The notes beneath the pieces are model-generated. The model was not told where the DNA came from, searched no databases, and saw only the letters and a program-made list of their open reading frames with translations. The position numbers and the translations under genes are program-made. Shown in pieces: positions 42,083 to 48,079 of a DNA stretch of 48,392 nucleotides. Origin of the DNA: Candidatus Methanoperedens sp. (GTDB taxonomy: Archaea; Halobacteriota; Methanosarcinia; Methanosarcinales; Methanoperedenaceae); the NCBI GenBank assembly GCA_021409285.1, contig JAGFND010000003.1, positions 1 to 48,392 on the forward strand. Reading direction: 5' to 3'. How positions within the stretch are numbered: position 1 is the first letter of the stretch; each line of letters starts with the position of its first letter.

Positions 42083-43261
42083 TTACCTCTTTACAACCAT
42101 GGCAATACCCTGGCCTCCTCCAATACAGAGAGTTGCAATACCATATGTAGCTTTCCTTCGTTGTAATTCATTGAGAAGTGTGACCAGTATCCTTGTGCCG
42201 CTTGCTCCTATAGGATGCCCGAGGGCTATGGCGCCGCCATTAACATTAACTTTGTCAGGATTCAAGCCCAGTTCCCTTCTAACAGCGATACTCTGGGATG
42301 CAAAGGCCTCATTGAGTTCTATAAGGTCGAGTTTATCAGAAGTTATGCCGGCTCTTTCTAAGGCTTTTCTGGTCGCACAAATTGGACCAAGACCCATAAG
42401 TTCAGGAGGAACTCCACAAAACCCATAACTCTGGATGGTTGCCAGGGGAGTAAGCCCTTTGTCTTTTGCTTTTTCTTCAGACATCAGTAGAACACAAGCA
42501 GCTCCATCGTTGATTCCTGAAGCATTCCCTGCAGTCACTGTCCCTTCTTTCTTAAATGCAGGTTTTAGTTTTGCAAGTATCTCTTTTGTTGTGCCAAACC
42601 GTGGAAACTCATCTGTATCAAAGATAACAGGCTCTCCTTTTGGCTGTGGAACTGAAACCGGAACGATCTCTTCCATGAACTTACCTGCCTTTATCGCAGT
42701 TTCTGCTTTATTCTGGCTGATCGCCGAGAATTCATCCTGCTCTTCCCGTGATATATTATATTTTACGGCAACGTTCTCTGCTGTGACGCCCATATGGTAA
42801 TTGTTAAAAATATCCCACAGTCCATCATGGATCATTAAATCCACAATTTCATCATTGCCCATCTTTGCTCCCCAGCGGGCTTTTTTCAGCGCGTACGGAG
42901 CGGTTGACATGGACTCTGTGCCTCCAGCCAGGATAACATCAGCATCACCCAGCATGATGGATTGTGCTCCAAGAACAACGGATTTCAAGCCTGAGCCGCA
43001 GACCTTGCTAACGCAAAAGGAAGGTACCTCTTTTGGAATTCCTGCCCATATCGCAGATTGTCTTGCCACGTTCTGTCCATGGCCTGCAGAAAGGACATTT
43101 CCCAGGATCACTTCATCAACTTCATCAGAACCAATATCTGCTCTTTTCAGGGCCTCTTTCAATACCACAGAACCAAGCTGCCCTGGATTGAAATCCTTAA
43201 GACTTCCCCCAAATTTCCCGACGGCTGTTCTGGTTGCAGATACGATAACTACATTATTCAT
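42083..43261 (-). CDS. phaA: acetyl-CoA acetyltransferase (beta-ketothiolase)
   Basis: Condenses two acetyl-CoA into acetoacetyl-CoA, first step toward PHB. 392 residues from [19 protein letters not shown] (ATG 43261, overlapping the upstream stop as ATGA). It has the nucleophile Cys in [13 protein letters not shown], the [10 protein letters not shown] block with its His, and the C-terminal CIGGGQGIA Cys. A full-length biosynthetic thiolase. Between two reductase genes of the PHA operon. Thiolase alone could serve other acyl-CoA chemistry, but the neighbours point to PHA. Confidence 0.93.
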
Positions 43262-43995
43262 ATTACTAATCCGCCATCCACACAAAGCACTGCCCCATTT
43301 ACAAAGTTTGATTCATCTGAAGCAAGATACATATATGCATATGCAACATCCTTTACTTCACCAAGTCTGCGCAATGGTGTTTTCTCTTTCATCATTTCAA
43401 GAATTTTATCAGGTACATTTGAGGTCATTGGAGTTGTAATAAATCCCGGCGCAACTGCATTGACTCTTATCCCTTTTTTCCCCAGTTCCTTTGCCAGGGT
43501 CTTAGTCATACCGATCAAACCGGCTTTGGTTGCAGCATAATTCACCTGGCCCACATTTCCGTTCAGTCCTACGATGGAAGATGTATTGATAATTACGCCT
43601 TTCCCCTGGTTCATCATGACTTCAACCACGGCCTGGGTGCAGTTAAAAACCCCTTTAAGATTGATGTTGATAACTTTATCCCACTGATCCTCAGTCATTT
43701 TTGATAAAAAGGCATCCTGGACAATGCCTGCATTATTGATCAGAACGTCTATTTTACCATATTTTTCAAGAGTGATCTTAACCATCTCTTTTGCCTGTTC
43801 CCTGTTGGAAACATCCAATTTAATAAAAATTCCCTCTCCGTTTTTCTTGATCTCAACAACTGTCTCCTCGCCAGCCCTTTCATTCATATCGGCGACAACA
43901 ACTTTGGCTCCTTCTCTTGCAAACAGCAGCGCAGTCTCTTTGCCAATACCGCTTCCTGCTCCTGTGATAATTATTACTTTGTTTTCAAGTCTCAT
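43258..43995 (-). CDS. phaB: acetoacetyl-CoA reductase (SDR)
   Basis: 245 residues, a standard-length [11 protein letters not shown] at about 11-18, NNAGIVQD, Ser in [10 protein letters not shown], Tyr-Lys in [19 protein letters not shown]-terminal [10 protein letters not shown]. Expected to reduce acetoacetyl-CoA to (R)-3-hydroxybutyryl-CoA, the PhaC substrate. It overlaps phaC by 11 bases and phaA by 3, so translation is tightly coupled. Position directly after phaC makes it the primary PhaB; the second reductase at 41226 may have another chain length or cofactor preference. Confidence 0.9.
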
Positions 43996-45136
43996 TTACA
44001 TTCACCCTTGCTCCATAATTCTTTCTTTCTTGTTCATTTGTTTTTTCTTTTCCTTTTCCATTGAGAAGAGACCTTGGCTTCAACCACGCTGCGATCTTGG
44101 GACAGACCTCCTTCTGGGACTTTGAGCCCACAAATATTCCTATATGACCGGTCGGGAAGACCAGAGTCTCTTTGTCAGTACTCGATACCGCATTTGACAA
44201 CGGCTTACTCGAATCGTTCGGAACGAGGTGATCGAATTCTGCCATGATATTAAGTAAAGGCATGGTAATATTTTTTAAATTGATTTTCGTGCCATTGAGC
44301 TTCATCTCATTTTTAATAAGAAGATTGTTCTGATAGCAGTCTTTCATGAATTGCCTGAACGTTTCCCCCGCCTGGTCGGGACTGTCGAATATCCATTTCT
44401 CCATTCTCAGGAAATTCTTGATCATATCCTCATTTCGAATTGAGCTTGTAGTATCATCCGGGTTACATTCGATCCGATCGAACATCCCTACATATTTATC
44501 GATCATAAGCCTGAACGGGTCAAGGAGCAAGAACGCTGAATTCAGGAAATCTCCGGGCACTATTCCATAGTAGTCCACGATCTTGTCCACGTCTAAGCTT
44601 TTTGCCCATAGATTCAGAATTCCTTTATCGGTATTGAAGTCTACGGGAGCCACCAGAGTAACCAGGTTTTGAACCTTTTCGGGGTGCTCTGCTGCATACA
44701 TCACGGAAAAAGTCCCGCCCTGGCATACTCCGAGCAGGGTGATCTTATCCAATCCAGATCGTTCCCTGATCTTATCCACAGAATTATTCAAATAACCGTT
44801 CACATAATCATCAAGTGTGAGATATCGGTCTGTACCTGATGGATATCCCCAATCAATGACATAAACATCAAAACCTTCTTCCAATAGCTTCTTTATTACA
44901 CTCTTATCAGGCTGGAGGTCAAGGATGTAGTATCTGTTCACTAGTGCATATACTATGAGCATCGGGACAGGATGTGGTTTTTCCACAGTTGGGATATAAT
45001 GGATAAGTTTCATCTTATCCTCACTAAATATTACTTCAGAAGGCGTTGTTCCAACCGAAAAATCGGGTGTTTTCTGGAGTAATTCCATTCCATGTTTATA
45101 TTTATCTAAATCTTCAATTAAATTAAGTCCGTTCAT
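43985..45136 (-). CDS. phaC: class III PHA synthase, catalytic subunit
   Basis: Polymerises (R)-3-hydroxyacyl-CoA. 383 residues, the short class III length (class I is about 550-600). An alpha/beta hydrolase fold: lipase-like box GVCQGG with catalytic Cys138, Asp in MAEFDHLVP and His in FPTGHIGIFVGS. Before them lie IVYALVNRYYILDLQP and VIDWGYPSGTDRYLTLDDY, typical of PhaC. It needs PhaE, encoded 20 bases upstream. The last 25 residues are basic and extend beyond the fold. Full PHA synthesis is possible from this operon. Confidence 0.95.
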   Translation of the reverse strand: MNGLNLIEDLDKYKHGMELLQKTPDFSVGTTPSEVIFSEDKMKLIHYIPTVEKPHPVPMLIVYALVNRYYILDLQPDKSVIKKLLEEGFDVYVIDWGYPSGTDRYLTLDDYVNGYLNNSVDKIRERSGLDKITLLGVCQGGTFSVMYAAEHPEKVQNLVTLVAPVDFNTDKGILNLWAKSLDVDKIVDYYGIVPGDFLNSAFLLLDPFRLMIDKYVGMFDRIECNPDDTTSSIRNEDMIKNFLRMEKWIFDSPDQAGETFRQFMKDCYQNNLLIKNEMKLNGTKINLKNITMPLLNIMAEFDHLVPNDSSKPLSNAVSSTDKETLVFPTGHIGIFVGSKSQKEVCPKIAAWLKPRSLLNGKGKEKTNEQERKNYGARVNVNET

Positions 45137-45156: not shown

Positions 45157-45738
45157 CTATTTTTTCTCTTTTAGTTCTTTGATCTGGCTTGTCAGCTCTT
45201 TTACTGTTTTCTTGAGAGAATATAACTCTTTATTGATCTCATCGATCTCTGTCTTGGTAGGGAGATTCATGGGTTTCAGATAATTCTCTTCAAGCATTTC
45301 CCTGTTATATCTTTGAAAATCCATTAAATAGGAATTCAATTTCCCCAGGTCAGCCACAAAGTGATCTGATTTTGAGAATTCCTTGAAGGTCTCGCTATAG
45401 GTCTGGATCCATGTATTGTAAAAATCCTTATATTTCTCAGGACTGATTTCCCCTTGCATATCTGTTGCATTTTTTTCCTGCACTTTACGCATTGCTTCCA
45501 TGAATACAGCCTGTAAATTAGAACTGGTATCCATCCCGGCTGCATAAAGGTTGGCAAATGTGGAGAAACCCTTCATCATTTTTTCAGATTTCTCACGTGC
45601 CGGGCCCACAGCAGGCATCTCGACGAGTTTGCCGATAGTGGCTTTGTAAGTATTTAACCACTGGTCATAAAATTCCTGCGTGGATTCAAGATTAGATTTT
45701 TCCATATTTGTACCTTTTTTTTGATATTGAGGGCTCAT
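45157..45738 (-). CDS. phaE: class III PHA synthase subunit PhaE
   Basis: 193 residues. Partner of PhaC. It contains two copies of the motif FY..W..TY (EFYDQWLNTYKATIGKL near residue 22; DFYNTWIQTYSETFKEF near 107), a middle helical part, and a C-terminal coiled coil (IDEINKELYSLKKTVKELTSQIKELKEKK, read as heptads). The first ATG (45738) overlaps the stop of the upstream gene; the ATG eleven codons later (45705) is a possible alternative. Shorter than typical bacterial PhaE (about 300-350). The repeat motif is shared with the two long proteins upstream. Confidence 0.88.
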   Translation of the reverse strand: MSPQYQKKGTNMEKSNLESTQEFYDQWLNTYKATIGKLVEMPAVGPAREKSEKMMKGFSTFANLYAAGMDTSSNLQAVFMEAMRKVQEKNATDMQGEISPEKYKDFYNTWIQTYSETFKEFSKSDHFVADLGKLNSYLMDFQRYNREMLEENYLKPMNLPTKTEIDEINKELYSLKKTVKELTSQIKELKEKK

Positions 45739-46832
45739 TTTTTATTCTTTCCCGGATACGCGGAGGCATATCTTGACTCCGATCCCACCCACATCTTTGA
45801 CATCTTTATAAATGTGTCTGCATACATTTTAGCCATGATCTTTACAGGCTCCATGATTTCTTTCATAGGTCCTCCAACAGTAGGCATGTCCTCGAAAAAG
45901 CTATCAAAAGCCTTTTCATACATCTTTAGCCAGAGATTATTAAATTCTTTAAACGCCTCCGGATCAGAGGTTTGTTTGGACATTTCCTTGGCCTTTTCTG
46001 ACATTTCTTCAAGTGCTGATATCCAGGACTTGTACATGCCCAGGTAAGCGTTAGTGCTATCTACAAAATTCCCGAACATTTCACCCTTTGGCTCCACGGA
46101 TTTAATATATTTGCCATATGTCTCTTTATATGTTTCCATCCATAAGTCATAGAATTCCTTATATGCTTCAGGGCCTGCATCTCCCCGGTAAATTTCTGCC
46201 ATTTTCTCGGATAATTTCAGCATAGATTCATTCAATGGCCTGCAAAGCTGTGCATAGGATTTTTTCCATAGTTTAGACATCTGCAAAAAGCTCCCAGAAT
46301 AGATATCTGGAATCCCCAGGTAATTTCCATATATCTCTTTTGTGCTTACTTTATCGGGCAGCTCCATTAGTTCGTCGAATATTTTTTCATAAGACCTCAT
46401 CCACATTTCATAGCATTCTTTATATTTTGCAGGATCCGGTTCCCCCTGGAGTATCTCTTTTGTCTTGCGGGAATTTTCTTCCAGCTCCGTTATAAATGAT
46501 CTGTAGAGTTTGTTGGATTCCTCTGCGTCTGATAGGAACTTTTGCAATGTCTCTTTATTATTTTTTACTGTTGGGATCGGATATAATTTACCAAAAGTAT
46601 TCTGGTATGTTTTGATCCATTCATCATAGAATTCCCTGTATTTCTGCGGCGTGGTTTCTTTTGAGAGAAGAGCCGTCTTTTCAAACATCTCTCCGGTGGA
46701 TTCAATCCAGGGCTTGTATAGATTTAAGCAGGAATCCTCCCACATTTTTGAAACTGCTGTATAATTATCAACCCATGTCTTGAAAATCTTCTCTTCGTTC
46801 AAGTCTTTTTTTTCTTCAGTTTTCTTGACCAT
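45735..46832 (-). CDS. four-repeat PhaE-like protein B (putative granule-associated)
   Basis: 365 residues, no signal peptide or membrane helix. It is built from four units of about 80 residues. Each has a segment like YKSWI..LEEMSEKAKE, then P..YKEFYD.W..TY...FG.L: EFYDEWIKTYQNTFGKL (about 54), ECYEMWMRSYEKIFDEL (about 122), EFYDLWMETYKETYGKY (about 212), EFNNLWLKMYEKAFDSF (about 289). PhaE carries two of these motifs. Its stop overlaps phaE. It may recruit PhaC/PhaE to granules or coat them like a phasin; both are inference. Close paralogue of the protein at 46991. Confidence 0.8.
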   Translation of the reverse strand: MVKKTEEKKDLNEEKIFKTWVDNYTAVSKMWEDSCLNLYKPWIESTGEMFEKTALLSKETTPQKYREFYDEWIKTYQNTFGKLYPIPTVKNNKETLQKFLSDAEESNKLYRSFITELEENSRKTKEILQGEPDPAKYKECYEMWMRSYEKIFDELMELPDKVSTKEIYGNYLGIPDIYSGSFLQMSKLWKKSYAQLCRPLNESMLKLSEKMAEIYRGDAGPEAYKEFYDLWMETYKETYGKYIKSVEPKGEMFGNFVDSTNAYLGMYKSWISALEEMSEKAKEMSKQTSDPEAFKEFNNLWLKMYEKAFDSFFEDMPTVGGPMKEIMEPVKIMAKMYADTFIKMSKMWVGSESRYASAYPGKNKK

Positions 46833-46838
46833 AATAAT

Positions 46839-46949
46839 TCACTTTCCCAGCATTTCTTCGACCATTTCGTCTGAACTTAACAGGAATCGCTCTCTCTCAA
46901 GATATATCTCGCCGCCGATATTTGCTGCACTTACTTCTTCGAATTCCAT
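46839..46949 (-). CDS. 36-residue small ORF between PhaE-like genes
   Basis: ATG 46949 to TGA 46839: 36 residues, MEFEEVSAANIGGEIYLERE then a short acidic helix ending MVEEMLGK. It fills the 158-base gap between the two long PhaE-like genes on the same strand. The acidic composition and normal codon use resemble coding sequence, but a clear ribosome binding site is lacking. It may be a real small protein, or the remnant of a larger one. Confidence 0.35.
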   Translation of the reverse strand: MEFEEVSAANIGGEIYLERERFLLSSDEMVEEMLGK

Positions 46950-46990
46950 CTAAATCATCTCTTTGTTTGAAGTCTCTGGGTTTTCTATTC

Positions 46991-48079
46991 TTAAACCGCA
47001 CTTGCAGAGATGGGATACGATTTCATCCAATTCCTGGATATGCCGGTAAATGTATCTACATATATCTTTGCTGCATTCTTTACAGGCTCAAAAATCTCTT
47101 TAAACGGGCTTACTGTGGGAGTGCTTTCAAAGAAGTTTTCAAACGCCTTTTCATATGTTTTGGCCCAGAGACTATAAAATTCCTTATATGTCTCAGGATC
47201 AGCATTTTGTTTTGATAGTTCCTTGGCCTTCTGTGACAGTTTTTCAAGGGTGGCTATCCAGGACTTGTAGATGTTCAGATTAACGTTTGCGCTTCGCACG
47301 AAATATTCTAATACTTCTTTTGAAGGCCGCTTGGACTGGATATCAAACAGTTTGCCATAGGTCTCCTGATAAGTATTCTGCCACAAGGTATAAAATTCCT
47401 TATAGGCTTCTGGGCTGGCATTTCCCCCGGAGATTTCCGATGATTTCGCAGAAATCTTGAGCATGGAGTCAATCCATGGCCTGTATAGCTTCGCATATGA
47501 ATCGTTCCATATTTTTAATATCTGCTCAAAGGTATTTGAATAGATATCCGGTGCGCCTGTGAGTTTCTCAAAGATCTCTTTTATATTTTGCCTGAATGGC
47601 AGTGTAAGGAGTTCATCGAATATTTTTCCATACGACTTTATCCACATATCATAGACTTCTTTATATTTCGCAGGATCTGGTTCCCCTTTTAGCACATCGC
47701 GTGTTGCCCTGGAATTCTCCTCTAAATTGGTTATCCATGACCTGTATATCTTATTGGAGTCCTCTGCGCTCACAAGAAGTTTTTCAAATGTTTCTTTACT
47801 GGATTCAACTGTGGGGATTTCATAAAAATCACCACAGGTATTCTGGTAGGTTTTCAACCATTCCTCATAAAATTCCTGGTATTTCTGTGGCGTGGCTTCT
47901 TTTGAGAGTTCGACCGCTTTCTCAAACAGCTCTCCTTTGGATCCTAACCAGGGCTTGTATAGCTTTAAGTAGGAATCCTCCCACATTTTCGAAATAGCTG
48001 TATAGCTGTCTTCCCATGTCTTGAAAATATCCTTATTTCCTTCGTTTATATCTTTTCTTTCTTCAGTTTCTTTGACCAT
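46991..48079 (-). CDS. four-repeat PhaE-like protein A (putative granule-associated)
   Basis: 362 residues with the same four-unit plan as the downstream paralogue: EFYEEWLKTYQNTCGDF, EVYDMWIKSYGKIFDEL, EFYTLWQNTYQETYGKL and EFYSLWAKTYEKAFENF, separated by YKPW/YRSW/YRPW/YKSW helices. The N-terminus (MVKETEERKDINEG) is nearly the same as that of protein B (MVKKTEEKKDLNEE), so the pair arose by gene duplication. GGAG lies 8 bases before the ATG. It is the first gene of the PHA operon. Predicted soluble, amphipathic helical. Confidence 0.8.
   Translation of the reverse strand: MVKETEERKDINEGNKDIFKTWEDSYTAISKMWEDSYLKLYKPWLGSKGELFEKAVELSKEATPQKYQEFYEEWLKTYQNTCGDFYEIPTVESSKETFEKLLVSAEDSNKIYRSWITNLEENSRATRDVLKGEPDPAKYKEVYDMWIKSYGKIFDELLTLPFRQNIKEIFEKLTGAPDIYSNTFEQILKIWNDSYAKLYRPWIDSMLKISAKSSEISGGNASPEAYKEFYTLWQNTYQETYGKLFDIQSKRPSKEVLEYFVRSANVNLNIYKSWIATLEKLSQKAKELSKQNADPETYKEFYSLWAKTYEKAFENFFESTPTVSPFKEIFEPVKNAAKIYVDTFTGISRNWMKSYPISASAV

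Follow-up and report, generated by a model that had tools for sequence, protein, structure and literature searches.

The PHA gene cluster of the methane-consuming archaeon Candidatus Methanoperedens sp. encodes, ahead of phaE and phaC, two related proteins, here called R1 and R2, each of which is best read from its sequence as a tandem double PhaE core, i.e. a duplicated two-motif module. Together with their homologs (the R proteins), they would form a PhaE-derived family of phasin-like granule scaffolds typical of the Methanoperedenaceae, a proposal whose chances we judge to be evenly balanced. Granule binding, a scaffold role and interaction with PhaC-PhaE represent the most likely function suggested by these sequences.

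The gene cluster

The window, i.e. the whole stretch of 48,392 nucleotides that was analysed, carries the cluster on its minus strand, where the genes run from position 48079 to 41226 in the order R1, R2, phaE, phaC, PhaB-type reductase, PhaA-type thiolase and second reductase. The features are as follows:

46991..48079, minus strand: R1, 362 aa, four-motif protein (putative double PhaE core) of the R1 clade; ORF, PF09712 at 28.1 bits, self-repeat, tree
47552..48028, minus strand: R1 first half, residues 18-176, motifs 1 and 2; hhalign against the PhaE core, E 2.5e-17
47021..47551, minus strand: R1 second half, residues 177-353, motifs 3 and 4; hhalign against the PhaE core, E 1.6e-19
46839..46949, minus strand: 36-codon ORF between R1 and R2; short relative of the ~105-aa protein encoded upstream of R in relatives
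45735..46832, minus strand: R2, 365 aa, four-motif protein (putative double PhaE core) of the R2 clade; PF09712 at 37.9 bits, self-repeat at 157, tree
45157..45738, minus strand: phaE, class III synthase subunit E, 193 aa; PF09712 at 88.5 bits, TIGR01834 at 76.9 bits (cut-off 155)
45157..45276, minus strand: C-terminal LPTKTEIDEINKEL coiled-coil segment of PhaE, absent from R; helix 162-192 in the model
43985..45136, minus strand: phaC, class III PHA synthase catalytic subunit, 383 aa; TIGR01836 at 481.9 bits (cut-off 365)
43258..43995, minus strand: SDR reductase, likely acetoacetyl-CoA reductase (PhaB role); PF13561, TIGR01829 at 241 bits
42083..43261, minus strand: acetyl-CoA acetyltransferase (PhaA role); PF00108/PF02803, NF004206 at 580 bits
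41226..42077, minus strand: second SDR/FabG-like reductase, last gene of the cluster; TIGR01830 at 311 bits

The likely start of phaE is residue 12 (MEKSN), which matches its relatives, and the acetyltransferase ORF, listed from a TTG at 43285, more likely begins at the ATG at 43261. The overlap of R2 with phaE is 4 nt long, and 20 nt lie between phaE and phaC. The original prediction placed the two upstream genes in one operon with phaC; the genes share one strand and are tightly packed, and an operon is likely, but R1 and R2 are split by a gap of 158 nt that contains the 36-codon ORF.

In many Methanoperedens loci, a gene immediately upstream of R encodes a protein of ~105 aa with the motif MERARYLLSTDE and the consensus ...YEDTLEDIEKTLGSVPxFMK...NWxSWKxVEEIDMERARYLLSTDEM... 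(among the relatives L016:3871-4197, L018:5458-5781, L019:5450-5770, L011:4563-4889 on the minus strand, L010:11816-12106 and L009:12765-13178 on the minus strand). The ORF in the window (46839-46949, minus strand) keeps the C-terminal motif of this protein, as a short form or remnant. The protein has no match in Pfam or NCBIfam. It occurs in 26 of the 34 family genomes, a set which is not identical to that of R: G006, with neither R nor PhaC, matches in part, and no match is seen in the R-bearing G002.

Repeat architecture of R1 and R2

PhaE (193 aa) carries FY..W..TY motifs at residues 20 and 103. In R1 they number four (YQEFYEEWLKTY, YKEVYDMWIKSY, YKEFYTLWQNTY and YKEFYSLWAKTY, at residues 67, 139, 226 and 298), and their equivalents in R2 are at residues 65, 137, 224 and 294, so that the predicted count of two motifs in PhaE and four in each upstream protein is borne out. 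The motifs are degenerate, the strict form being kept by three of the four in R1 and two of the four in R2; the motif tryptophan is present at all four positions in 55-56 of the 56 family members.

The repeats were also predicted to be regular units of about 80 residues, and this does not hold, the spacing being 72/87/72 in R1 and 72/87/70 in R2 with a dominant period of 157-159 residues. Self-alignment, which had been proposed as a check, gave signals far above chance: the best ungapped self-match scores 210 at 159 residues in R1 and 122 at 157 residues in R2, against maxima of 49 and 48 in 100 shuffles each (the highest for any protein being 52), and offsets 72 and 87 rank after 159. The other paralogs R4 and R5 likewise match themselves best at 159 residues (194 and 187). 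In R3 the higher-order period is weaker, with a best score of 103 at offset 72, followed by 79 at 159. Comparison of quarter profiles from 56 sequences, with a single choice of boundaries placed around the motifs, shows repeats 1 and 3 to be the closest pair (E 7e-27), with E 6e-18 for 2 versus 4 and 8e-19 for 3 versus 4. Four equal 80-residue repeats are thus ruled out by the 157-159-residue period in R1 and R2 together with the pairing of 1 with 3 and 2 with 4. The two halves of R align with each other at E 3e-43 (hhalign). The decisive point for the double-core reading is that repeats 1 and 3 align around PhaE motif 1, and repeats 2 and 4 around PhaE motif 2.

Relation to PhaE and to known families

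Profile comparison of R with PhaE (E 5e-17) establishes homology and, with the repeat expansion, upholds the proposed derivation from PhaE. The expansion of the PhaE motif is real, yet its form differs from that envisaged, since the whole PhaE core is doubled and the C-terminal coiled coil is lost. This LPTK..ID coiled coil, in a model of PhaE residues 141-193 with LPTKTEIDEINKEL, is found in 0 of 56 R and in 39 of 39 PhaE sequences; the latter result follows by construction, the model having been built from those PhaE sequences, and the former does not. R shares with PhaE (PF09712/TIGR01834) a homologous two-motif helical core and the same likely operon, but differs in having two tandem cores and no C-terminal coiled coil.

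Both R1 (28.1 bits) and R2 (37.9 bits) exceed the PF09712 gathering score of 25.7, their best stretches stopping at positions 253 and 270, respectively, of the 311-position profile, and 52 of 56 R sequences match this profile at E 0.01. The TIGR01834 cut-off (154.95) is missed by R1 and R2 (14.6 and 17.2 bits) and also by the PhaE of the window (76.9). R genes lie beside class III phaC, although phaE intervenes and some copies stand alone. Automatic annotation would label R1 and R2 as PhaE.

Phasins (PF09361, PF05597) resemble R as helical amphipathic proteins of PHA systems. R1 and R2, however, fall below the PF09361 (Phasin_2) cut-off of 24.9 (15.0 and 13.8 bits) and have no PF05597 match, and granule binding by R is a prediction; 11 of 56 R sequences match PF09361 at E 0.01 or better (best E 5e-6). 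PhaR, the class IV synthase subunit (TIGR02132), is likewise a helical accessory partner of PhaC, yet its model gives only a trace match to the PhaE of the window (13.9 bits, cut-off 148) and none to R. Haloarchaeal PhaP, which as a granule protein of an archaeal PHA system has the role proposed for R, is set apart by its description as an AbrB-type protein unrelated to PhaE. The phasin listed for Haloferax mediterranei has 154 aa (PMC6355812).

The AlphaFold2 model of R1 is an all-helical chain in which long helices alternate with motif helices (mean pLDDT 64.7, pTM 0.36); that of PhaE has five main helices, the last being the long C-terminal one (pLDDT 80.3, pTM 0.56). Structure prediction of the repeats, also among the checks originally proposed, is thus consistent with the present reading in being all-helical, but a mean pLDDT of 65 is too low to settle the fold, and the R1 model is too weak for placing helices in space. 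Searches of PDB folds with the two models returned no significant match, and sequence searches returned no meaningful solved relative; 3jqh was rejected as a relative of PhaE, as its match covers only ~30 residues of the coiled-coil end. The hydrophobic moment of most motif helices is higher than in shuffles of their own sequence, as would be expected of surface-binding helices and equally of any helix packed on another.

Paralogs, distribution and conservation

The genome contains five full R copies and a shortened sixth (C33) at a contig edge. R3, on C183, heads a second complete R-phaE-phaC-reductase-thiolase-reductase cluster (L009:13377-19044), which is divergent from that of the window (PhaE 53% identical). 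R4, on C175, lies ahead of a reductase, and beside R5, on C173, no PHA gene was seen. Three-motif copies occur in C33 (L135:2-724) and in another genome (G169:C190:1569-2297), both missing the motif 3-4 stretch in frame, as if by recombination between repeats.

The R family is found in 25 of the 30 other genomes of the genus and in 27 of the 34 Methanoperedenaceae genomes, including that of the window, with one to about six copies per genome. Among these 34 genomes, 25 have both R and PhaC, seven have neither, two have R only and none has PhaC only; completeness is 63% and 77% in the two genomes with R only, and the co-occurrence has a Fisher p of 7e-6 when genomes are treated as independent despite their shared ancestry. 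Named relatives of R belong mostly to Ca. Methanoperedens; a handful are filed as Methanosarcinales METP1, an ANME-2 cluster MAG, Methanomicrobiales, Euryarchaeota, Thaumarchaeota and Nitrospirae MAGs. Strong matches occur in three more genomes in the rest of the class (G069, G169 and G174), and an even draw of the phylum revealed R in one further family (G291). The lineage specificity originally suggested is therefore supported as a near-restriction to one lineage. The occurrences outside Methanoperedenaceae may be transfers or binning errors. In G291, a Methanomicrobiales MAG, R-phaE-phaC-thiolase-reductase lie in the same order on a 218-kb contig (C2; L127/L044) with a local GC of 0.53, for which horizontal transfer is possible. 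Mobile or viral carriage was discounted for the collections searched, as no R was found in IMG/VR, phage records or PLSDB plasmids. Another archaeal family of the phylum has two phaC-like genes after genes for a 350-aa PhaE-like and a 398-aa weakly R-like protein (G277:C97, L128:286-4696), perhaps an independent paired arrangement.

Linkage to phaC is supported by the order R-phaE-phaC in 40 of 52 loci, which were found by similarity to R and are not 52 independent cases, some sharing a genome. In the other 12, R and phaE are followed by the contig end (one), R is followed by a reductase (two), R has no cluster genes close downstream (six, among them L050, which sits less than 1 kb from a contig end) or the contig ends within 300 bp of R (three). 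Ten of the 52 loci have more than one R gene or fragment.

R1 and R2 were originally viewed as duplicates sharing an N-terminus. They are alike there, but the likeness spans their whole length (61% identity); they are indeed paralogs, yet old ones shared by many species within the genus. A maximum-likelihood tree of 58 R sequences, with a midpoint root for drawing only, assigns R1 to a clade of 25 members (support 100/97) and R2 to one of 13 (100/99), and an R1-type gene followed by an R2-type gene recurs in other species (L028, L031, L033 and L133). The two supported clades and the recurring order place the R1/R2 split before these species, and a recent duplication is ruled out by the tree. 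The R family is under purifying selection, with dN/dS against relatives of 0.14-0.31, compared to 0.16-0.19 for PhaE.

Possible roles of the R proteins

By the proposed mechanism, an ancestral PhaE core, consisting of two amphipathic W/Y/F-rich motif helices and long linker helices, would have been duplicated in tandem, and the doubled core would have lost the C-terminal coiled coil. The extended, all-helical R protein, made together with the synthase, might then attach, via its repeated aromatic amphipathic helices, to the PHA granule surface as the granule grows, to the PhaC-PhaE complex, or to both. A phasin-like scaffold is suggested by the derivation from PhaE, the lost C-terminus, the copies away from phaC, the amphipathic aromatic helices, the Phasin_2 matches in 11 of 56 sequences and the company of PhaC. 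R shares with phasins an amphipathic helical make-up, judged from the low-confidence all-helical model and the hydrophobic moments, and an occurrence with PHA synthesis, seen as co-occurrence with PhaC in the 34 family genomes. On the other hand, a synthase subunit would explain the position by phaE and the similarity to PhaE just as well, confidence in the R1 model is low and no PDB structure matches it significantly, and another protein of this genome exceeds the Pfam Phasin cut-off. No PF09361 protein was found in this genome, but PF05597 matches once, so that the absence of any other phasin is not claimed. This protein of 106 aa, a probable coiled coil (C220; L134:2884-3204, minus strand; 37 bits, cut-off 28.8), is encoded next to an ABC1/UbiB-like kinase gene, away from PHA genes, and is possibly the "phasin" of other annotations; the PF05597 model also matches in non-PHA control genomes.

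The main alternative, though not a probable one, is that R constitutes a second PhaE-type synthase subunit, whereby PhaC would have two partners, the short PhaE and the double-core R, the latter setting oligomeric state, activity or chain length. Homology to PhaE, the near-constant place before phaE and the co-occurrence with PhaC all agree with this, yet the C-terminal segment present in 39 of 39 PhaE is missing from 56 of 56 R, the loci read retain a phaE of their own between R and phaC, and R copies lie away from phaC and reach about six per genome. Multiple copies of this kind, some of them distant from phaC, are more in keeping with an abundant coat protein than with a subunit of fixed ratio. 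It is improbable that R acts in regulation or partitioning rather than coating, as a PhaM-like activator or a granule-nucleoid or granule-granule linker: its repeated helical modules carry no enzymatic signature and its genes cluster with that of the uncharacterised ~105-aa protein, but domain profile searches found no DNA-binding or known partner domain. The shortened copy C33 might speak for a PhaE expansion that is degenerate or redundant, lacks a role of its own and persists through hitch-hiking with the operon. This is very improbable given the constraint on R, namely the dN/dS of 0.14-0.31 and the invariant motif tryptophans in 56 sequences; moreover, the two old clades are kept across species, and R is near-universal in PhaC-bearing genomes.

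The R proteins in the context of PHA storage

The portions of the literature covered describe phaC and phaE, their operon and PHA production in Ca. Methanoperedens (PMC8561730, PMC11337218), with both genes among the top 3% of expressed genes (PMC11337218). In the covered text of a pangenome study PhaE, unlike PhaC, does not form one cluster (PMC8561730), a failure that, in our view, R may explain. An expressed phasin is reported in Methanoperedens, its gene being unnamed in the main text, and the PHA pathway in all Borgs (PMC11208441); another report gives PHA genes in at least ten Borgs (PMC9605863). As far as the covered text goes, published Ca. Methanoperedens PHA pathways name only PhaA/AtoB, PhaB and PhaC-PhaE. 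The suggestion that these proteins had not been described accords with the passages covered, in which no account of a double-core PhaE-like protein as a distinct family was found.

A bolder and rather doubtful extension is that R serves Methanoperedens as an obligatory granule scaffold dedicated to this role, a type of phasin that emerged within an archaeal lineage when a synthase subunit was doubled, independently of the phasins known from bacteria and haloarchaea; R1, R2 and their paralogs would then serve different granule kinds or growth stages. Ca. Methanoperedens stores carbon as PHA, and R, a conserved component in close linkage with the synthase, would supply a part so far missing from the picture. 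If the scaffold role is true, the family would clearly exemplify a granule protein that evolved from a synthase subunit, and R would mark the capacity for PHA in these uncultured archaea.
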